Below, piece after piece: positions 8,444-34,707 of a DNA stretch of 59,407 nt (positions are counted from its first letter, which is position 1; every line of letters starts with the position of its first letter). A program made the translations under genes and the position numbers. Source of the DNA: an uncultured Lachnospiraceae bacterium (GTDB lineage: Bacteria; Bacillota; Clostridia; Lachnospirales; Lachnospiraceae); assembly GCA_902778165.1 (NCBI GenBank), contig CACYWQ010000010.1, forward strand, positions 1 to 59,407, read 5' to 3'. The notes below the pieces were generated by a model. That model was not told the DNA's origin and ran no database searches. It was given only the letters and a program-made list of their open reading frames with translations.

Positions 8444-10374
<1,931 letters not shown>

Positions 10375-23866: not shown

Positions 23867-26242
23867 ATGGCTGAATGGGTAATTGTAGTCGACGATCACA
23901 GTGAGAATCTTAAGATCGCCGGTCACATTTTGAGTAATGCAGGCATGCGTGTTACGGCTCTTAAGTCGGGACAGGCCATGCTTGATTATGTTGAGAATAA
24001 CGGAACGCCGAACCTTATTCTGCTTGATATTATGATGCCTGAGATGGACGGATTTGAGGCATTGGCCAAACTAAGAGCATATGAGCAGAAGTTAAGTCTT
24101 AATGAGACCCCCGTTGTATTCTTAACGGCGGAAGATGACGCTGACCTTGAGAGTAAAGGATTTGATGAGGGAGGCGCTGACTTTATCAAAAAGCCCTTCG
24201 ATCCGGATGTTTTGGTCAAGAGAGTACGAAAGGTAATAAGCACCACTGAACAGATCAATAAATTCGAATCTGAGGCCACACATGACAGTCTTACCGGTCT
24301 GCTTAATAAGGCGGAGGCCACTCATGAAGCGGCGGAAATGTGCGCATCCGGCCGCGGTCATTTACTTGTAGTGGATATAGATTCATTTAAACTTGTTAAT
24401 GATGTCTACGGACATGATGCAGGCGATAAGGTCCTTATAGGATTCTCCAAACTTCTAAGAGAGTCGATTACGCATAAGAGTCTTGTGGGAAGAATAGGCG
24501 GAGATGAGTTCTTAGTATTTATTGAGGGTGCGGACGATTCGGAATTACATGCGCTTGCAGATACTCTCAATGAGAAGATAGTAGCTTTGTCCAAGGATCT
24601 TCTCGGAGATCAGATGTCTATTCCCATCGGAATATCCATAGGTGCCGTTTCCGTTCCGGAGGCAGGAACCGTATTTGCCGAACTGTTCCGTATGGCGGAT
24701 AAGGCACTCTATATAGTTAAGAATAATGGTAAGCACGGACTTGAGATATATTCGGCGCAGCTTAAGGGAGATATGCCCGATGTGCCTGACGATATCAACC
24801 TGACAACTCTGTCACATATTCTTGAAGAGAGAAATGTTCCCCAGAGTGCCATGTGGATGGGTAAAGAAGCCTTCGGAAACGTATACAGATATATGATCCG
24901 TTATATGGATCGTTATCACGGAACGGCGTATAAACTCCTGTATAATGTCAACTTTGATAAGCCTGATCTGACGGATTCCGTTAAGGAAGATATCATTGAC
25001 CGAGTAAGAGAATTGCTTCAGAATTCACTTCGTAACAGTGATATTATGATGCAGGTCGGTCTAAATCACTTCTTCCTGTTATTGCCGGAGATTAGTGAAT
25101 ATAACGCACTCAGGGTGTCAGAACGTATCAGTACCGCATGGAGTACCGATGATTATAATTCCATGGCTACACTTCGTGTGGAAATGGACAGTGTAACCGA
25201 TGACCTTCATGACAATCCGCTTAGTAAAGAAAGAGAAGCGGATTGGGTTGTGGTTGTGGATGATGACAGGACCAATCTTATGATGGTCGGTAATATCTTA
25301 AGTAAGAACAATATCCGTGTAACAGCGCTTCAGTCCGGACAGGCATTCCTTGATTTCATGAAGGAGAATAAGCCCGATCTTATCCTTATGGATGTCAATA
25401 TGCCGGATATGGACGGATTTGAGACCTACAGCAAGTTAAGAGAGCAGGAGGCGAGCGCCGCCAAGATTCCTCTTATCTTCTTAACGGCCGATGAAAACGA
25501 ATCCACAGAGACCAAGGGACTTGAACTCGGAGCAATGGATTTTGTAAGAAAGCCTTTGGTTCCCGGCAACCTCATACTCAGAGTCAAGCATACGCTTGAA
25601 CTTGCACTTCTTCAGAATCATCTTATGGAAGAAGTTGAGCGTAAGACGGAAGAGAATAAGGACATGTCCATGCACATAGTTAAGGCCTTGGCTGAAGCTA
25701 TTGATGCGAAGGACACATATACCAACGGTCATTCCGGCAGAGTGGCGGAATATACGAAGATGATAGCCGGAAGATACGGATATACCGGAACTAAGCTTGA
25801 TGATATATACATGATGGGTCTTCTGCATGATGTCGGTAAGATAGGAATACCGGATGCAATCATCAATAAACCTGCCAAGTTAAGCGATGATGAATTCGAA
25901 GTAATAAAGACTCATCCGGTTATGGGTGCAAGAATACTTAACAGTATTACTGAGATGCCAGCACTGGCAATGGGTGCGAGATGGCATCATGAAAGATACG
26001 ACGGAAAGGGATATCCTGACGGACTTAAGGGTGAGGATATTCCGGAAGAGGCAAGAATAATAGCTGTTGCCGATGCATATGATGCCATGAGCAGCAGAAG
26101 AAGTTACAGGGGTATTCTGCCTCAGGAAGTGGTAAGGGAAGAGATAGCCAAGGGAGTCGGAACACAGTTTGATCCTAAGTTTGCCGAGATCATGCTTGCC
26201 ATGATCGATGACGATACGGATTATGATATGAAGGAGGAGTAA
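23867..26242 (+). CDS. REC-GGDEF-pseudoGGDEF-REC-HD-GYP bifunctional c-di-GMP regulator
   Basis: A 791-residue soluble protein. REC1 (4-125) has phosphoacceptor Asp54 (LLDIMMPEMDG). The GGDEF domain (137-297) has an intact RIGGDEF at 209-215 and no RxxD inhibitory site. A second cyclase-like domain (about 325-445) reads VGLNHFFLLLPE at 397-408 where an active copy would have GGDEF. REC2 (459-580) has Asp509 and is strikingly like REC1 (WVxVVDD, RVTALxSGQAxLD). HD-GYP (595-791) has HDVGK (654-658) and HHERYDGKGYP (707-717). The protein could therefore both make and degrade c-di-GMP under control of two receivers. Hybrid histidine kinase genes follow directly. Confidence 0.9.
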   Translation: MAEWVIVVDDHSENLKIAGHILSNAGMRVTALKSGQAMLDYVENNGTPNLILLDIMMPEMDGFEALAKLRAYEQKLSLNETPVVFLTAEDDADLESKGFDEGGADFIKKPFDPDVLVKRVRKVISTTEQINKFESEATHDSLTGLLNKAEATHEAAEMCASGRGHLLVVDIDSFKLVNDVYGHDAGDKVLIGFSKLLRESITHKSLVGRIGGDEFLVFIEGADDSELHALADTLNEKIVALSKDLLGDQMSIPIGISIGAVSVPEAGTVFAELFRMADKALYIVKNNGKHGLEIYSAQLKGDMPDVPDDINLTTLSHILEERNVPQSAMWMGKEAFGNVYRYMIRYMDRYHGTAYKLLYNVNFDKPDLTDSVKEDIIDRVRELLQNSLRNSDIMMQVGLNHFFLLLPEISEYNALRVSERISTAWSTDDYNSMATLRVEMDSVTDDLHDNPLSKEREADWVVVVDDDRTNLMMVGNILSKNNIRVTALQSGQAFLDFMKENKPDLILMDVNMPDMDGFETYSKLREQEASAAKIPLIFLTADENESTETKGLELGAMDFVRKPLVPGNLILRVKHTLELALLQNHLMEEVERKTEENKDMSMHIVKALAEAIDAKDTYTNGHSGRVAEYTKMIAGRYGYTGTKLDDIYMMGLLHDVGKIGIPDAIINKPAKLSDDEFEVIKTHPVMGARILNSITEMPALAMGARWHHERYDGKGYPDGLKGEDIPEEARIIAVADAYDAMSSRRSYRGILPQEVVREEIAKGVGTQFDPKFAEIMLAMIDDDTDYDMKEE

Positions 26243-26251
26243 TTGGGGGGT

Positions 26252-28858
26252 ATGGATAATAACAAACTTGATCAAAACGAACTGTTTAAGAGTTCACAGT
26301 TAATGATCCTTAATCTGTTCTCCATTCTGGCAGTGATTCTTATCGGTGAATCGCTGCTGCTTCATTGGGAGACATGGGCTTTGGTTCTTATTGCGGCAGG
26401 ACTGATAATCAGTTGGGCTCTGCATATAAGACAGAGCATTAATGACAATGCAAGATTATGGATCTATTCATTTCTAATGATGGCGACATTCTTCTTCTAC
26501 GGCGCTCATCAGACCAGCACATTCGATCTGGCCTTGGTCATGGTTGCGGTTATGTCCGTGTATACAATGACAGGTCAGAAGACACTGATCCTTCTGTGTC
26601 AGATTACGTTCTATATCACTTTCGCATACGAAATTATAATTATGTATTTAAACGGTGAGCAGTTTGACAGCCTTGTCATAACCCGCTCGCTACTTCATAT
26701 TGCACTTGTAACGGCCGTGGGCTGGGTGGCTCGTACCATTATTGAGAAGTGGAGCAAGGTTCTTAGCAAATCATCCGATGAGATCAGTGCGTTAAGGGAT
26801 GCAACCACAAGACTTAATGATTTCCTGGCCAATATCTCCCATGAGATCCGCACACCCGTTAATGCGGTTATCGGTCTTACGGGCGTGTGCATAGGCAAAG
26901 AGAAGGATGCGGAAGTTAAGAAGGATCTTCTTGCCATAGAGGAAGCCGGTAAGAGAGTGGGAGAGCAGATAAGCGATATCCTTGACTACTCCGAGATAGA
27001 CATGAATAAACTGGCCGTCAGCACCGAAGACTATATGATGTCATCGCTTCTTAACGACCTGGTTACGGAATTAACGCCGTATAAGCGTAACAATATTGAA
27101 CTTGTAATAGATGTGGATGCCAATCTTCCTTCGGTTCTTAATACCGATGTATCCAAGCTTAAGAAGATTATGTGGCATCTTGTTGTCAACGGCCTTAAAT
27201 ACACCAAAGAAGGCGGAGTGTATGTGCATATCACATCGGTTCCCCGTGAATACGGTGTTAATCTCTGCGTTGAAGTAACGGATACTGGAATAGGTATGAG
27301 TGAAGCCGAAATAGAGAGGATATTCGACAGATTCTATCAGGCCGATTCGGGCAGAAGTCGTGCAACAAGCGGTTTGGGCCTTGGCCTTACCATAGTCAAC
27401 GGGTTCGTTAGATCAATGGGCGGATTCCTAACGATAGAGAGTCAGTCCGGCAAGGGAACCACCGTAAGAATAAGCATTCCTCAGGGTGTTGCCGATGAAT
27501 CCCATTGTATGTCTGTAGAGTCTCCGGATAAGCTCGTCCTCGGTGCTTACTTGCATTTCGAGAAATTCGACAATCCTCATGTCAGAGATTTCTATAACGC
27601 TATGGTCAAGGACATTGTTCAGGGACTCAGGGTTACGATGCACCGTGTGGATAATATCGACGGACTTAAGAAACTGGCTTCAGGCATGAAATTCACCCAT
27701 CTGTTTGTGGGTAAGGAAGAGTACGAATCTGATGTTGAATTCATGGAGAATCTGGCAGAGGATACCGTGGTTGCCATCGTTGCCGATGACGCATTTGAAT
27801 TGCCTGAAGGTTCCAAGTCAAGGATCATGCGTAAGCCCTTCTTCTGTTTCCCTGTTATTGCAGTCCTTAATTCCAACCCGCATGAGCAGGCAAGAGAAGA
27901 AGAGAAACTGTATTGCAAAGGCGTTCGCGCACTCGTCGTTGATGATGAGCCCATGAACTTGACCGTTGCCATAGGAATATTCAGGCAATACGGAATGAAA
28001 GTAGAGACAGCACCTTCCGGAACAGATGCAATTGAACTTTGCAGAGAGAATAAGTATGACATCATTTTCATGGATCATATGATGCCCGGAATGGACGGTG
28101 TTGAGGCCATGAAGCGCATAAGAAGCGAGTGGTCACGCGATAAGAGCAGGATCAATGATGTTCCCATAGTTGCACTTACGGCCAACACGGTAAGTACGGC
28201 CAAAGAAATGTTTATAAGAGAGGGCTTCGACGGATTCATCGGCAAGCCCGTGGAGATCGCGGAACTTGAAAGAGTACTTCGCAAAGTCCTGCCCAAGTCG
28301 GCATTTGTAAGTGCTGATGATATTATCCCCGCCGATGAACCGATTCAGGATAAAGCGGCTGCGACTGAGACTATAAATATCTCTGAGGATAACAATGATA
28401 ACGGGGCGAACTGTCTAAACGAACTTAGGACCTTAGGCGTAGATACATCCGTGGGTCTTGGTTATTCACAGAATGATGTTGAATTCTATAAGACACTTCT
28501 TATGCAGTACGGAAGTGAAGGAAGCGATAAGAGAATCAAGGCAGAAGAGTTTAGAGATAAACAAGCCTATGATGACTATGCCATAGTTGTGCATTCGGTT
28601 AAGAGCACATCCAAGATGATAGGAGCCAAGGATCTGTCGGAGAAAGCAAGGCAACTTGAGATGGCAGCCAAGGAAGGCAGAATAGATGTGATAGATGAAC
28701 TCCATGATGAGACGATGGAGGAATATAAGGTATTGTCTGAAGGTATATTAAGTATTCTCGGCGCACCTGTAAGCGGTGAGGATAATAAGGACGAGGTAAT
28801 GGAATTCGGCCCCGGAGACGGGATGCTTGAATTCGCTCCGAAAGGCGGTGAAGCATAA
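26252..28858 (+). CDS. Hybrid sensor histidine kinase with receiver and Hpt domains
   Basis: An 868-residue membrane kinase. About five helices lie within residues 17-160. The HisKA domain has the phospho-His197 in ANISHEIRTPVN. The ATPase domain carries VVNGLKYT, DTGIGMS and SGLGLGLTIV. A segment at about 428-545 looks like a pseudo-receiver lacking the Asp. A true receiver follows with Asp608 (FMDHMMPGMDG), and a C-terminal Hpt domain has His781 (VVHSVKSTSKMIGA). This His-Asp-His chain could feed a separate response regulator. ATG 26252 is chosen, with AAGGAGGAG and a G-run upstream; an in-frame TTG at 26243 is possible. Confidence 0.9.
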   Translation: MDNNKLDQNELFKSSQLMILNLFSILAVILIGESLLLHWETWALVLIAAGLIISWALHIRQSINDNARLWIYSFLMMATFFFYGAHQTSTFDLALVMVAVMSVYTMTGQKTLILLCQITFYITFAYEIIIMYLNGEQFDSLVITRSLLHIALVTAVGWVARTIIEKWSKVLSKSSDEISALRDATTRLNDFLANISHEIRTPVNAVIGLTGVCIGKEKDAEVKKDLLAIEEAGKRVGEQISDILDYSEIDMNKLAVSTEDYMMSSLLNDLVTELTPYKRNNIELVIDVDANLPSVLNTDVSKLKKIMWHLVVNGLKYTKEGGVYVHITSVPREYGVNLCVEVTDTGIGMSEAEIERIFDRFYQADSGRSRATSGLGLGLTIVNGFVRSMGGFLTIESQSGKGTTVRISIPQGVADESHCMSVESPDKLVLGAYLHFEKFDNPHVRDFYNAMVKDIVQGLRVTMHRVDNIDGLKKLASGMKFTHLFVGKEEYESDVEFMENLAEDTVVAIVADDAFELPEGSKSRIMRKPFFCFPVIAVLNSNPHEQAREEEKLYCKGVRALVVDDEPMNLTVAIGIFRQYGMKVETAPSGTDAIELCRENKYDIIFMDHMMPGMDGVEAMKRIRSEWSRDKSRINDVPIVALTANTVSTAKEMFIREGFDGFIGKPVEIAELERVLRKVLPKSAFVSADDIIPADEPIQDKAAATETINISEDNNDNGANCLNELRTLGVDTSVGLGYSQNDVEFYKTLLMQYGSEGSDKRIKAEEFRDKQAYDDYAIVVHSVKSTSKMIGAKDLSEKARQLEMAAKEGRIDVIDELHDETMEEYKVLSEGILSILGAPVSGEDNKDEVMEFGPGDGMLEFAPKGGEA

Positions 28859-31530
28859 TGAAGAAATTGATTAATAACTATGTTGATCGTCTGTTATATT
28901 CGGACAAGGACTTTAAAGAGAAGATGTTTACGTTAATAACTATTATAGCTATTTCGTCAGTCTTCTTGGCATTCTTAGGAGATCTTCTTATCGGAGAACA
29001 CATAGGTGAGACGGTTTCTTTGGGAATACTGGTGTTATTGGCTACGTTGGTGGCATATATAACCATTAAGTATAAGAAACTTAAAGTAGGAGGAGTCTTA
29101 CTTGCCTTAGGTGTTGTGTTCGGAGCAATCCCCGCATCATTTTTCTTCGGCGGAGGACTTACGGGCGGTTCAGTGCTCTGGGTAGGTGTATGTTACCTGT
29201 ATATCGGACTTATTCTTGACGGCGTTCCGAGAAGAATACTGATGACCATACTTACGTTGCTTGTTATCGGGGAGATGATCTATTCGTATTTCAACCCCAA
29301 TATCATTCAATATCATGTCAGAGAGATGTGGTATATAGATATAGGCATATCGGTTATTCTGGTGGGATTTGTGATTTATTTGATGGTTTCTTTCCAGAAC
29401 AGACTCTTTAAGTTAGAGACCGAGAGAACCAGAGCGCAGGCTAAAGAGATTGAGGAACTTAATGAATCTCAGAACAGGTTCTTCTCAAGCATGAGCCATG
29501 AGATAAGAACTCCCATCAATACGATCATCGGATTAAACGAGATGATATTAAGGGAGAACGCATCCGATGAGATCAATGAGAATGCCGCCAATATTCAGGC
29601 TGCCAGCAAGATGTTGCTGCATCTTATTAACGATATTCTGGATATGTCCAAGTTTGAATCAGGACAGATGGAACTTACTCCTGTACAGTACCATACCGGA
29701 GATATGTTATCCGATGTGGTAAGTATGTTATGGATCAAGGCCAAAGATAAAGAACTTGATTTTACCATAGACGTCTCACCCGATCTTCCCGAGATGTTGC
29801 TTGGTGATGAAGTCAGGATCAAACAGATCCTTATTAACGTGCTTAATAATGCGATCAAATATACAAGCGAAGGTTCGGTCAAATTACAGATTCAGTGTGA
29901 ACGTAACGGTGATATGGCTAATGTCATGTATACCGTATCGGATACCGGAATGGGTATTAAGAAGGAGAACATTCCTTATCTGTTTACCGCATTTAAGCGT
30001 GTGGATGAAGACAAGAACCGTTATATAGAGGGTACGGGTCTTGGCCTGTCCATCGTCAAACAGTTCGTGGATCTGATGGGCGGTAAGATTACCGTTAACA
30101 GTGTGTATACCAAGGGCTCGACCTTTGTAATTGAGATACCTCAGAAGATCATAAGCGACAATCATCTTGGCGAGATAGACATGAAGAGAAGTCGAGGCGT
30201 GCATCGTAAATATGTGCAGAGTTTCGAGGCTCCGGAGGCAAGAGTACTTGTTGTTGATGATACTTTGGCCAATCTTATGGTGGTTCAGAAACTGCTCAGA
30301 GAGACTAAGGTACAGCTTGATACGGCTGAAAGCGGTAAGGAAGCTCTGCTTAAGACATTTGATACCGAATACCATGTCATATTCATGGATCATATGATGC
30401 CTGAAATGAGCGGTATAGAATGTATGCATAAGATAAGGGAACAGAAGGGCGGCCTGTGTAAGGAGTCCAAGATCGTTGCTCTTACTGCAAATGCAGGAAG
30501 TGATATGGAGATGTTCTACGCCAAGGAAGGCTTCGACGGATATCTTGTCAAGCCTATAAGCGGCGAAGGACTCGAAAATGAGTTATACAGATTGCTTCCC
30601 AAGGATATAGTGATAGTTACGGGAACCAATGATGTGCTTGCCAAGGAGAGTATGGCATGGATACGTAATCACCGTAAGAAAGCTCCGATTATGATCACTA
30701 CGGAGAGCGTAGCGGATGTACCGAATGGTCTGCTTGATAAGTACAATATATCCGTTTTGCCCCATATGGTAGTCACGCCTAAGGGTATATTCAGAGATGG
30801 TATAGAGATAGAGACCAGAGGCCTTCTGTCATTTATGGAGAGTGAATCAGGTGCAGTACAGACACTTGCTCCGGGAGTGAGTGAACATGAACTGTTCTTT
30901 GCGGAACAATTGCAGAATGCCAATAATATCATACATGTATCGATATCGAGTCATGTAGAACACAGCGGATGTCTGATAGCCAAAGAAGCGGCGGCGGATT
31001 TTGATAATGTTCACGTGTTTGATTCCGGACACTTATCAAGCGGCCAGGGCCTTATGGCGATCGAAGCTGCAAGACTTGCCTCTACGGGTATGAACGTTGA
31101 CGATATCATCAAACATCTTGATAAAATGAGAAGTCATGTTTATACAAGCTTTATAGTGGATACACTTGATTATCTTGCCAGAGCCGGTCAGATAGGTAAT
31201 AAGGTGGCTATATTATCCAAGGCATTGATGATACATCCGGTTCTTGCTCTTAAGAAGGGTAGGATGATGGTATCCAAAGTCTTCTTCGGTACAAGAGAGA
31301 GCGCCTGGGAGAAATATATTAAGACTGTATTCCGCGTGCCCGGCAAGATAGATAAGAGAATGTTGTTTGTGACATACGTTGGTATGTCTCAGAAAGAACT
31401 TGAATCCGTGGAGAAGATAATCAGTAGAAAAATGGAATTTGAACATATTTATTTCCAGAAGGCTTCTCCGGCCGTTGCTGTTAACTGCGGCCCCGGAACA
31501 TTCGGATTATTATTCTACACACAGTATTGA
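28858..31530 (+). CDS. Hybrid histidine kinase-receiver fused to a DegV fatty-acid-binding domain
   Basis: An 890-residue protein. Membrane helices lie in 22-180 and a short coiled coil at 185-205. HisKA has His214 (SSMSHEIRTPIN), and the ATPase has NVLNNAIKYT, DTGMGI and EGTGLGLSIV. The receiver (461-580) has Asp511. Residues 610-890 are a DegV domain: ITTESVADVPNGLLDKY, FRDGIEI, VQTLAP, ISSHVEHSG, LDYLARAGQIG (770-780) and the C-terminal GPGTFGLLF. DegV (EDD) proteins bind one fatty acid and, as FakB, present it to FakA kinase. Here the receiver sits between kinase and DegV, suggesting fatty-acid-dependent control or an output. Its ATG overlaps the previous stop (TAATG). Confidence 0.9.
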   Translation: MKKLINNYVDRLLYSDKDFKEKMFTLITIIAISSVFLAFLGDLLIGEHIGETVSLGILVLLATLVAYITIKYKKLKVGGVLLALGVVFGAIPASFFFGGGLTGGSVLWVGVCYLYIGLILDGVPRRILMTILTLLVIGEMIYSYFNPNIIQYHVREMWYIDIGISVILVGFVIYLMVSFQNRLFKLETERTRAQAKEIEELNESQNRFFSSMSHEIRTPINTIIGLNEMILRENASDEINENAANIQAASKMLLHLINDILDMSKFESGQMELTPVQYHTGDMLSDVVSMLWIKAKDKELDFTIDVSPDLPEMLLGDEVRIKQILINVLNNAIKYTSEGSVKLQIQCERNGDMANVMYTVSDTGMGIKKENIPYLFTAFKRVDEDKNRYIEGTGLGLSIVKQFVDLMGGKITVNSVYTKGSTFVIEIPQKIISDNHLGEIDMKRSRGVHRKYVQSFEAPEARVLVVDDTLANLMVVQKLLRETKVQLDTAESGKEALLKTFDTEYHVIFMDHMMPEMSGIECMHKIREQKGGLCKESKIVALTANAGSDMEMFYAKEGFDGYLVKPISGEGLENELYRLLPKDIVIVTGTNDVLAKESMAWIRNHRKKAPIMITTESVADVPNGLLDKYNISVLPHMVVTPKGIFRDGIEIETRGLLSFMESESGAVQTLAPGVSEHELFFAEQLQNANNIIHVSISSHVEHSGCLIAKEAAADFDNVHVFDSGHLSSGQGLMAIEAARLASTGMNVDDIIKHLDKMRSHVYTSFIVDTLDYLARAGQIGNKVAILSKALMIHPVLALKKGRMMVSKVFFGTRESAWEKYIKTVFRVPGKIDKRMLFVTYVGMSQKELESVEKIISRKMEFEHIYFQKASPAVAVNCGPGTFGLLFYTQY

Positions 31531-31547: not shown

Positions 31548-32186
31548 ATGAATGATTTGCTTAATAAGATACACGATATAGGAATAGTGCCTGTTGTGGC
31601 GATAGAGAGTGCGTCAGATGCTGTACCGTTAGCCAATGCGCTTGTTAAGGGCGGATTGCCGATTGCGGAGATAACATTTAGGACTGATGCAGCGGCAGAT
31701 GCCATTAAGGCAATCACATCGGAAGTTCCGCAGATGATCGTTGGTGCAGGTACCGTGCTTACAAATGAGCAGATTGATAAGGCTGTAGCAGCCGGTGCAA
31801 GCTTCATTGTAAGTCCCGGATTTAATCCGAAGACTTTGGAGTATGCACTATCTCTGGGAGTATGTATGATTCCCGGTACCGCAACGCCGGGTGAGATGGA
31901 ACAGGCTATGTCTTACGGACTTGATGTGGTTAAGTTCTTCCCGGCTGAATTAAACGGCGGGCTTGCCATGCTTAAGGCTTTGGCAGGTCCTTACAGGAAT
32001 CTTAAATGGATGCCTACAGGCGGTATCAATGCAGGCAATATTACCGATTACCTGTCATTTGACAAGGTATTGGCCTGCGGCGGTACATGGATGGTGAGTA
32101 AAGATCTTATCGCCGGTAAGAAATGGGATGAGATTACGGCCCTTTGTGTTGAAGTCGTTAATAAGAAACGGACAATCGGAAGATAA
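31548..32186 (+). CDS. eda: KDPG/KHG aldolase
   Basis: A 212-residue class I aldolase that splits 2-keto-3-deoxy-6-phosphogluconate into pyruvate and glyceraldehyde 3-phosphate. Family hallmarks are VPVVAIES, GLPIAEITFRT, VGAGTVLT, the Schiff-base lysine in DVVKFFPAE and the phosphate-binding MPTGGIN. It directly precedes the KDG kinase and uronate isomerase genes, giving the lower part of uronate breakdown (KDG to KDPG to C3). The preceding DegV-kinase gene ends 17 bases upstream. Confidence 0.95.
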   Translation: MNDLLNKIHDIGIVPVVAIESASDAVPLANALVKGGLPIAEITFRTDAAADAIKAITSEVPQMIVGAGTVLTNEQIDKAVAAGASFIVSPGFNPKTLEYALSLGVCMIPGTATPGEMEQAMSYGLDVVKFFPAELNGGLAMLKALAGPYRNLKWMPTGGINAGNITDYLSFDKVLACGGTWMVSKDLIAGKKWDEITALCVEVVNKKRTIGR

Positions 32187-32202
32187 TACGAGGTAGATTA
32201 TA

Positions 32203-33225
32203 ATGAGCAGAGTGATAACTTTCGGCGAGATAATGTTGCGACTTGCCCCGGAAGGATATAACAGATTCTTTCAAAACGATACATTAAATGCCACATTCGG
32301 AGGCGGTGAAGCCAATGTTGCGGTATCACTTGCCAACTACGGATTAGACAGTGTATTTGTGACCAAACTTCCTTCACATGCAATAGGTCAGGGAGCGGTT
32401 AACGACTTAAGAAGATATGGTGTGGATACAAGCCTGATAGTCAGAGGCGGAGAGAGAATAGGCATATATTATCTTGAGAAGGGTGCTTCGGTAAGAGGAA
32501 GCGTTTGCATATATGACAGGGCTCATTCGGCAATCTCTGAGGCAGTATCATCTGATTTTGATTGGGATAAGATATTTGAAGGAGCGGATTGGTTTCATTT
32601 CACGGGAATCACGCCTGCCCTTGGCAGTAACGTTGCCGATATCTGCCTTGAGGCATGTAAGGCGGCTAAGTCTAAGGGAGTTAAGATAAGCCTTGATCTT
32701 AATTACAGAAGCAAGCTATGGACCAGAGAAGAGGCAGGACAGGCCATGGCCAAACTGTGTGAATATGTGGACGTATGCATATGCAATGAAGAAGATGCCA
32801 AGGATGTATTCGGTATTGAATCAGAACAAAGCGATATAACCGGCGGTAAGATAGATACCGAAGGATATAAGTCGGTTGCTAAGCAGTTACGCGACAGGTT
32901 CGGATTTGACAAAGTGGCGATTACTCTCAGGACATCCATATCGGCCAGTGACAATGATTGGCAGGGTATGCTCTATGACGGAAATGAGTGTTACTTATCC
33001 AAGAAGTATCATTTGCATATCGTTGACAGAGTGGGAGGTGGCGACAGCTTCGCAGGGGGGCTTATATATGCCATCCTTAACGGATATTCCCCGGCTGATA
33101 CCATAGAATTTGCCGTAGCGGCATCTGCACTTAAGCATACGATTGAAGGCGATTATAACAGAGTCAGTGTTGATGAGGTTAAGAAACTTGCAGGAGGAGA
33201 CGGATCGGGCAGGGTAGTAAGATAA
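32203..33225 (+). CDS. kdgK: 2-keto-3-deoxygluconate kinase (PfkB family)
   Basis: A 340-residue sugar kinase. The N-terminal TFGEIMLRLAPEG and GGGEANVAVSLANYG and the C-terminal catalytic motif RVGGGDSFAGG (Asp as base) mark the PfkB family. The start (LAPEGYNRF) and the context between KDPG aldolase and glucuronate isomerase make KDG the expected substrate, giving KDPG. A related specificity such as fructose is less likely in this place. Confidence 0.88.
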   Translation: MSRVITFGEIMLRLAPEGYNRFFQNDTLNATFGGGEANVAVSLANYGLDSVFVTKLPSHAIGQGAVNDLRRYGVDTSLIVRGGERIGIYYLEKGASVRGSVCIYDRAHSAISEAVSSDFDWDKIFEGADWFHFTGITPALGSNVADICLEACKAAKSKGVKISLDLNYRSKLWTREEAGQAMAKLCEYVDVCICNEEDAKDVFGIESEQSDITGGKIDTEGYKSVAKQLRDRFGFDKVAITLRTSISASDNDWQGMLYDGNECYLSKKYHLHIVDRVGGGDSFAGGLIYAILNGYSPADTIEFAVAASALKHTIEGDYNRVSVDEVKKLAGGDGSGRVVR

Positions 33226-33227
33226 TT

Positions 33228-34655
33228 ATGAGTTTGTTTATGGATGAAGATTTCTTATTGCATAATGATATTGCGAGACATCTGTACCATGATTATGCCA
33301 AGCCTCTGCCGATAATAGACTATCATTGTCATTTATCGGCTAAGGATATATTTATGGATGTTAAGTTTGATAATCTGGGACAGATATGGTTCGGCGGAAG
33401 GCAGGCTGACGGTTCGTATTCGGGTGACCACTATAAGTGGAGACTTATGCGAAGTGCGGGAGTGCCTGAAGAATCAATAACGGGAAGTGATGATGAACTT
33501 AGCCGTTTTAAGCAGTTTGCCGATGCACTCACACTTGCAATAGGCAATCCGATGTATCATTGGTGCAATCTTGAACTTAAGAGATATTTCGGCATAGATG
33601 AACCTTTATCACCCGTCAATGCGGAAGATATATGGAATAAGTGCAATGAGATACTTCGTGATGATGACATGAGTGTCAGGAATCTTATCAGACGCAGTAA
33701 TGTTGCGTTTATCGGAACAACGGATGACCCCACGGATGACCTTAAATGGCATATTAAGATAGGGGAAGACCATGAGTTTAAATGCGAGGTAAGACCGTCA
33801 TTCAGACCCGATAAAGCCATATCAATCGATAAGCCCGGATTTGCGGAATATATTGATAAGCTGTCCGATGTTACGGGAATTAAGATTGATTCTACAGCTG
33901 ATGTGATCGAAGCTCTTATGCAGAGACTTATATTCTTTAAACAGAACGGATGTGTTGCCGCAGATCACGGACTTGATTATATTCCGCATAAGGAGATTTC
34001 TGTAGAGGCCTGCGATAAGATATTTGTCAAGGCTATGGCAGGTGGTGCCATAACGGCGGATGAAGCCGACGGTTATAAGACGACTGTGCTTACGGCACTT
34101 GCGAAAGCCTATCATAAGAATGATATAGTGATGAAACTTCACTATTCAACACTTCGTAATGTCAATGCAAGGATGTATGACAGATTGGGGCCTGATACGG
34201 GATATGACGTAATGGCGCAGAATATGTGTGCAGGCAATCTTATCAGATTACTGTCCAAACTCGATGAGACGGATGAATTGCCAAGGACGGTCATATTCTC
34301 ACTTAATCCGACGGACAATGCACTTATAGATACGCTAATCGGAGCATTTCAGTCATCGGATGTACCGGGTAAGATACAACATGGTCCTGCATGGTGGTTT
34401 AACGATTCCAAGTACGGAATGGAAGAACAACTTAAGTCCATGGCAAGCCTTACGGTACTTGGTAATTTCATCGGAATGCTGACGGATTCCAGGTCGTTTC
34501 TCTCATATACAAGGCATGAATATTTCAGAAGGATATTGTGTAATCTGATCGGCAAATGGGTCTGTGACGGTGAATATCCGAATGATGATCTGATGCTTAG
34601 AAGATTAACTGAAGGAATATCATATTACAACGCCAAGAGATACTTCGGAATATAG
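33228..34655 (+). CDS. uxaC: Glucuronate/galacturonate isomerase
   Basis: A 475-residue cytoplasmic isomerase of the amidohydrolase-like uronate isomerase family, converting D-glucuronate to fructuronate or D-galacturonate to tagaturonate. It contains PIIDYHCHLSAKDI (metal-ligand HxH) near residue 24, KFDNLGQIWFGG-like text, FIGTTDDPTDDL and the late GPAWWFNDSKYGM. It begins 2 bases after the kinase gene and is followed by a terminator. The reductase and dehydratase (UxaB/UxuB, UxaA/UxuA) that would link it to KDG are not in this window. Confidence 0.95.
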   Translation: MSLFMDEDFLLHNDIARHLYHDYAKPLPIIDYHCHLSAKDIFMDVKFDNLGQIWFGGRQADGSYSGDHYKWRLMRSAGVPEESITGSDDELSRFKQFADALTLAIGNPMYHWCNLELKRYFGIDEPLSPVNAEDIWNKCNEILRDDDMSVRNLIRRSNVAFIGTTDDPTDDLKWHIKIGEDHEFKCEVRPSFRPDKAISIDKPGFAEYIDKLSDVTGIKIDSTADVIEALMQRLIFFKQNGCVAADHGLDYIPHKEISVEACDKIFVKAMAGGAITADEADGYKTTVLTALAKAYHKNDIVMKLHYSTLRNVNARMYDRLGPDTGYDVMAQNMCAGNLIRLLSKLDETDELPRTVIFSLNPTDNALIDTLIGAFQSSDVPGKIQHGPAWWFNDSKYGMEEQLKSMASLTVLGNFIGMLTDSRSFLSYTRHEYFRRILCNLIGKWVCDGEYPNDDLMLRRLTEGISYYNAKRYFGI

Positions 34656-34674
34656 CATATAACTTAACTCAACA

Positions 34675-34707
34675 AGTGGTCGGACTATTGTCCGGCCATT
34701 GTTATTT
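34675..34707 (+). terminator. Intrinsic terminator after uxaC
   Basis: A 9-bp stem TGGTCGGAC / GTCCGGCCA (one G-U pair) with a TATT loop, followed by a T-rich tail TTGTTATTT. It closes the long co-directional run that starts at 18.4 kb. Confidence 0.8.

Follow-up and report, generated by a model that had tools for sequence, protein, structure and literature searches.

A recurrent histidine kinase-receiver-DegV fusion, paired with a second hybrid kinase, in a Lachnospiraceae bacterium and its relatives

Introduction

In Xanthomonas, RpfC and RpfG connect a fatty acid, the diffusible signal factor (DSF), to cyclic di-GMP (c-di-GMP) by way of a hybrid kinase and an HD-GYP regulator; according to the available part of the source, the link from fatty acid signal to c-di-GMP is established for Rpf, and RpfC senses through its short periplasmic N-terminus (PMC5391125). 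Here we describe a system with some of the same parts in a stretch of 59,407 nucleotides, hereafter the window, from an uncultured Lachnospiraceae bacterium (assembly GCA_902778165.1, contig CACYWQ010000010.1, forward strand). One gene of the window (28858..31530, + strand, like all window features below) encodes a hybrid histidine kinase (HK) with transmembrane (TM) helices whose receiver (REC) domain is followed by a DegV domain, and the gene before it encodes a second hybrid kinase that ends in a histidine phosphotransfer (HPt) domain.

The genes rpfC and rpfG are neighbours, and in the window a TM-HK-REC-HPt kinase (26243-28858) likewise stands beside a receiver-HD-GYP gene (23867-26242). 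The two systems share a membrane hybrid kinase with REC and HPt domains and an HD-GYP-domain regulator, as far as the available part of the source describes them (PMC5391125). This likeness is one of architecture and parts only and not a claim of common descent. The window system differs by an additional kinase that bears a cytosolic DegV domain, and DegV is not mentioned for RpfC in the same available part (PMC5391125).

DegV domains themselves are well known. The FakB carriers (PF02645; for example Staphylococcus aureus FakB1, PDB 5uto) have the DegV fold in common with the fusion and differ from it in that the fused domain is joined to a membrane kinase and has lost the residue set that marks FakB. 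Among other regulators, DhaK-DhaR of Escherichia coli and DhaQ of Lactococcus lactis, which belong to dihydroxyacetone kinase regulation, are set apart from the phosphorelay fusion in that they bind dihydroxyacetone and target transcription regulators rather than working in a phosphorelay. DegV has also been found inside multidomain proteins in work whose available text does not contain the term 'histidine kinase' (PMC12288450). An earlier note on this DNA, made from the letters alone, had named no described mechanism for a kinase-receiver-DegV protein, and we likewise found no description of such a fusion in the full-text literature, as searched by titles and abstract openings (subscription journals poorly covered, architecture databases outside the search). 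Hybrid kinases and DegV domains are each already known. We propose, with a confidence that falls a little short of even, that this DegV is a retired carrier of fatty acid phosphorylation, reused as the cytosolic ligand-responsive domain of a two-kinase phosphorelay that feeds c-di-GMP control, with a ligand, a ligand identity and an effect that we infer.

Results and Discussion

Architecture and recurrence of the fusion

The fusion gene is a single uninterrupted open reading frame (ORF) of 890 residues in which four domains score above their curated Pfam cut-offs: HisKA (residues 205-269, 29470..29664, 64.1 bits) with the phospho-acceptor His214, HATPase_c (residues 316-430, 29803..30147, 96.6 bits), the receiver (Response_reg, residues 463-574, 30244..30579, 74.2 bits) with Asp511, and DegV (PF02645, residues 611-888, 30688..31521, 151.4 bits). 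The HisKA histidine and the HATPase_c boxes are followed C-terminally by the receiver aspartate, as in hybrid histidine kinases. The AlphaFold2 (AF2) model places six long helices ahead of, or running into, HisKA; these predicted helices (about residues 19-180, 28912..29397) are taken as membrane helices on account of their hydrophobicity, and no Pfam family at E<=1 lay above its cut-off there. Between receiver and DegV runs a linker (about residues 581-608, 30598..30681) in which the predicted local distance difference test score (pLDDT) drops below 50 at residues 590-606. The earlier note had read the gene in just this way, as one protein with membrane helices, HisKA, ATPase and receiver domains and a full DegV/EDD domain containing LDYLARAGQIG, ISS and GPGTFGLLF, and the profiles, the model and the motifs present in the domain bear it out.

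The same domain order was found well beyond this locus. A homologue search of genome contigs, from which the best 80 of 589 relatives were kept as loci, yielded 82 such proteins in 80 loci of other genomes, each locus holding at least one fusion and two loci holding two. The source genome has nine DegV matches, six of them standalone and three in long frames, and carries two paralogues on other contigs: a TM-HK-REC-DegV protein of 903 residues (L010, contig C15) and a TM-HK-REC-DegV-HPt protein of 1148 residues (L009, contig C20). Because 82 fusions in other genomes and two paralogues in the same genome share the domain order, a fusion made by frameshift, assembly or chance is ruled out; the frameshift into two genes that the earlier note had named as its own undoing did not occur.

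The 82 homologues, the two paralogues and the window protein were aligned as a set of 85. His214 is invariant in all 85, as are N327, D362, G364, G366, G392, G394, L395, G396 and L397 of HATPase_c and D467, D468, D511, T543 and K565 of the receiver, so that the two residues singled out earlier, His214 and Asp511, proved to be fixed across the family. The DegV domain has two invariant columns, D620 and G811.

Draws of genomes at three taxonomic ranks gave a measure of how common the fusion is. In the family draw, at least 29 frames of fused length were present in at least 19 of 100 genomes (source genome included), counted as open frames of >=876 residues with the domains verified for the source genome's own three only. 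Fused frames longer than 700 residues occurred in 6/196 genomes of the order draw and 3/398 of the phylum draw, all of them of the window's family, with at most 12 and at most 6 candidates per genome, respectively, scored at E<=1e-60; three fusions from these draws (L110, L114, L115) were domain-checked. The records behind the 80 loci are mostly labelled Lachnospiraceae, Butyrivibrio and relatives, many from rumen or gut, and also Ruminococcus, Oscillospiraceae and one Alistipes, the deposited labels being taken as they stand. A plasmid search returned one 59-base match and no plasmid copy.

The fused DegV domain has lost the FakB residue set

The predicted DegV fold resembles that of the fatty acid carriers, and profile and fold agree in placing the domain in the DegV/EDD family; Foldseek/VIA scores did not separate open from closed FakB1 structures. 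As described in the available parts of the sources, two arginines are conserved in FakB, Arg205 for docking to FakA (PMC8892158) and Arg173 as a residue needed for the Fak reaction (PMC8892158, PMC9136124), and in FakB1 the residues Thr62, Ser95, Ser171 and His270 form a carboxylate network in which the His270 network appears to balance the carboxylate charge (PMC8892158). The window protein has Q778, F810 and N876 at the positions of Arg173, Arg205 and His270. Among the fusions, arginine is found at position 173 in 25/85 (standalone DegVs, 23/23), arginine at 205 in 1/85 (22/23) and histidine at 270 in 2/85 (22/23). Since the three residues occur together in 0/85 fusions versus 22/23 standalone proteins, the fused DegV is, judged by its residues, not a working FakB subunit. 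The standalone set of 23 comprised the six proteins of the source genome and 17 that were either top scorers of the fusion profile (family, order and phylum) or neighbours in the same stretch; it omits L100, L101 and L111, whose DegV is fused to other domains or lies in a long frame. The three fusions from the order and phylum draws, scored separately, also lack the complete set, and L114 retains Arg205. An initial reading in which Arg205 had become an invariant glycine was dropped, as alignment with closer standalone DegVs puts that glycine one residue later.

These replacements bear directly on the idea of a fatty-acid-linked sensor put forward in the earlier note: with the FakA-docking, catalytic and carboxylate residues replaced, fatty acid binding cannot be assumed. 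What stands of that idea is the fold of a fatty-acid-binding DegV; what does not stand is a FakB-type carrier simply placed on a kinase. The note had also named a pocket filled by bulky side chains as a refutation, and this did not occur: the tunnel positions identifiable from the available part of PMC8892158 (121, 158, 162, 191 and 271) carry L, T, V, L and C in the window protein, all small or apolar.

The residue pattern can also be read in another way, in which the role of the DegV domain is structural or one of docking: it would hold the two kinases or the HPt in place, and its tunnel would bind nothing any more. The residue replacing Arg205 is mostly hydrophobic (74/85) and might form a new protein contact, the invariant D620 and G811 are not named as pocket residues in the available part of PMC8892158, and one large clade (35 proteins) places DegV between receiver and HPt. 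We nevertheless consider this reading unlikely, as the five tunnel positions are mostly small or apolar across the fusions and position 270 is asparagine in 71/85. Taken together, Asn270 and the small or apolar tunnel positions suggest that a binding site has been kept in altered form. Across the family its polar residues are recast, with mostly Thr or Ser at position 62 and asparagine at 270.

The partner kinase and a single HPt

The fusion is half of a conserved two-kinase unit, a feature that goes beyond the earlier note, as does the HPt of the upstream hybrid kinase. In the window the partner is a TM-HisKA-HATPase-REC-HPt hybrid kinase (26243..28858, from a TTG; an ATG shortly after, behind GGAGG, is the likelier start), and the fusion gene begins on its stop codon (TAATG, one base common to both). 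The HPt of the partner (28556..28708) scores 22.5 bits in Pfam, just below the cut-off of 24.6, and is also matched by a custom HPt profile. A kinase gene lies directly upstream of the fusion in 80/85 cases. Of the five fusions without a scored partner, one (L014) starts 563 bases into its contig and is preceded by an HPt-bearing fragment, two (L065, L085) have kinase and receiver in separate frames, one (L082) has a REC-HPt frame, and one (L043) has no partner within 2.5 kb.

Across the 80 pairs the HPt was found in the upstream kinase only (43), in the DegV protein only (33), in both (0) or in neither (1); in three further pairs the HPt is upstream and the DegV frame is cut by the contig end. 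Exactly one HPt was present in 76 of the 77 pairs seen whole. In the remaining pair (L060) the DegV protein ends prematurely close to the contig end, and past this stop HPt-like residues are seen in another frame (L060, about 9150-9447), from either a real break or an assembly error. The 35 proteins with HPt behind DegV fall, together with L060, in one clade of 36 members (support 1.0); independent switches were rejected on this ground, and the placement of the HPt is one ancestral switch, kept since. We infer from gene order and domain content that each pair forms one relay, two kinases with one HPt in common.

Strict motif counts over 78 upstream kinases gave the His box in 76, the receiver aspartate in 77, the N box in 60, G1 in 67, G2 in 51 and the HPt motif in 31; the patterns are so narrow that a low count does not prove a motif lost. 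No His box was matched in L063, which is cut by the contig end, or in L032, which also lacks a receiver match.

Gene neighbourhood and a proposed link to c-di-GMP

The gene that ends one base before the partner kinase (23867..26242) encodes, by domain search, a REC-GGDEF-REC-HD-GYP protein that is predicted to make and/or degrade c-di-GMP and is the proposed output of the relay. Neighbour slots were counted with a stricter choice of ORFs, which left 78 pairs instead of 80. A GGDEF or HD-GYP gene stands directly upstream of the pair on the same strand in 24/78 pairs, the window included; counted by genes, such domains occur in 24/56 genes of the upstream slot, 3/56 directly downstream and 18/401 other ORFs of the loci. 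Recurrent families among the first four ORFs upstream and the first three downstream, with domains taken from some representatives, include REC-HD-GYP (13 loci), REC-GGDEF (10 loci), single receivers (6 loci) and REC-GGDEF-REC-HD-GYP (4 loci, the window among them). Because of the upstream enrichment and these recurrent receiver-bearing neighbours, a c-di-GMP enzyme with a receiver likely receives the phosphate in part of the family, including the window. The source genome has 29 GGDEF matches in 2.35 Mb.

The neighbourhood also lends something to a reading in which the DegV domain is a ligand sensor whose ligand is not a fatty acid, for example an uncharged lipid, an isoprenoid or a small metabolite. 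His270, part of the FakB1 carboxylate network in the available part of PMC8892158, is the very position at which most fusions have asparagine, no lipid gene was recognised among the recurrent neighbour families, and a transporter of the Na_Ala_symp family recurs in 15 loci. We give this reading a small chance, well below that of the acyl-chain or related lipid ligand in the model we propose.

Other recurrent neighbours were noted. A protein of about 255-290 residues with a receiver in its C-terminal half only, and an N-terminal half without assignment, lies next to the fusion in 27 loci (e.g., L048 1373-2245) and is perhaps a dedicated regulator. The Na_Ala_symp (sodium:alanine symporter) gene (e.g., L009 7729-9252) lies 1-3 ORFs downstream of the fusion in 14 of its 15 loci. 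Near some pairs there are further kinases with iron-sulphur parts: one (L068 1123-4332) combines HK, REC and HPt with ferredoxin, Fe-only hydrogenase C-terminal and FeS domains, and another (L009 62-2182) has HK, REC and HPt with an FeS match just below cut-off. Related HK/REC/HPt or REC/HPt genes occur in 16 loci. Downstream of the DegV gene in the window, on the same strand (31548-34655) and with gaps of 17, 16 and 2 bases, are genes for a KDPG/KHG aldolase, a PfkB-family sugar kinase and UxaC glucuronate isomerase, followed by a terminator-like hairpin at 34675-34700; kinase and hexuronate genes may form one transcript.

A proposed relay

In the model we propose, the fusion would act as the second kinase of a two-kinase phosphorelay. 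Its DegV domain would no longer supply FakA and would bind a hydrophobic ligand taken from the cytosol or the inner leaflet, an acyl chain or related lipid being the likeliest candidate. The loaded, empty or membrane-docked state of DegV may then alter phosphotransfer between the neighbouring receiver and the common HPt, which would in turn phosphorylate the c-di-GMP enzyme (23867-26242 in the window) on its receiver; the direction of signalling and the output are as putative as the ligand. The membrane part of each kinase might add a second, separate input. The distance from receiver to DegV between profile ends is 35-39 residues in 84/85 fusions and 61 in one, and that from DegV to HPt, in the fusions that have one, is 37-101; near-constant spacing on one side versus variable spacing on the other fits a coupling of DegV to the receiver.

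That same spacing puts DegV right after the receiver, the usual place of an output, so that a phosphorylated receiver could induce it to take up, release or sequester fatty acids, much as effector domains follow receivers in response regulators, an account that we hold improbable because Arg205 is lost in 84/85 and Arg173 in 60/85, leaving no delivery to FakA by the known route, and because 35/85 run on into an HPt, so that phosphate is passed on rather than ended there.

Several observations weigh against the lipid-responsive relay. The case for ligand binding by DegV is built on sequence and fold, and the carboxylate network is kept in part only: position 62 is Thr or Ser in 74/85 fusions and position 95 is Ser in 56/85, with Glu in the window protein, or His under another gap placing, in a region of uncertain alignment. 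The AF2 model has a predicted template modelling score (pTM) of 0.53, and with its low-confidence linker the arrangement of receiver and DegV is not fixed. The constancy of the receiver-DegV spacing may reflect descent only, because the kinase-to-receiver spacing is equally constant (33-37 in the 85 fusions), and the exclusive placement of the HPt is one evolutionary event, a single observation by descent and not 76 independent ones. As for the surroundings, 51/78 pairs lack a c-di-GMP gene of the same strand in either adjacent slot, the window genes downstream of the fusion serve hexuronate use, and the 15 neighbour families present in at least 3 loci included none recognised as a lipid-metabolism gene (seven run on Pfam, one of them DUF6976; six with nothing but signalling domains by custom profiles; two without assignment).

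If the lipid-responsive relay is true, it would tie lipids of the cell or the diet directly to behaviour under c-di-GMP control, such as surface attachment and motility, in gut and rumen bacteria, and fatty acid sensing by Gram-positive gut bacteria through two-component signalling would become directly testable. The sensor fold would be that of a carrier of well-known structure, with a ligand that can be read by mass spectrometry. The change from metabolic carrier to sensor would then be a clear case, in which the residues that changed are identified and a close sister clade of standalone proteins can serve as reference. A broader claim, which we offer tentatively and with less confidence than the model for this locus, is that these pairs form a class of phosphorelay that is undescribed yet widespread among the Clostridia of gut and rumen, some genomes having several paralogues. 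In this class a carrier domain, cut off from fatty acid kinase by the loss of its docking and catalytic residues, would sense lipids in the cytosol for a relay of paired kinases that sets c-di-GMP, an intracellular counterpart of Xanthomonas Rpf.

Unfused forms and other DegV proteins

Two genomes of the family (L092, L093) have a standalone DegV gene that overlaps the end of an HK-REC-HPt gene. Both standalone proteins have Asn270 and a hydrophobic residue at 205, and they group with the fusions in the tree, with a support of only 0.66. These loci are a natural unfused linkage of the same type of DegV with the same type of kinase. The eight standalone sister DegVs carry the complete FakB residue set. 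Leu121 and Cys271, once considered specific to the fusions, are present in this sister clade as well and were rejected as such markers.

Other DegV proteins were seen along the way. In the source genome a standalone FakB-like DegV (L004) lies near the FakA gene. In another standalone DegV of that genome (L005 1486-2334, contig C29) position 205 is Ile and position 270 is Tyr, which makes it a second departure from the FakB set. Elsewhere, a standalone FakB-like DegV (L103 5961-8843) overlaps the gene for a receiver-Trans_reg_C response regulator, and a HAMP histidine kinase gene comes next. Finally, a Dak2-FakA_M-DegV fusion (L100 4117-5901) and a HAD hydrolase-DegV fusion (L101 5160-6830) likewise carry DegV as one domain of a larger protein and differ in its fusion partner, which is a FakA-like part or a hydrolase instead of a kinase and receiver.
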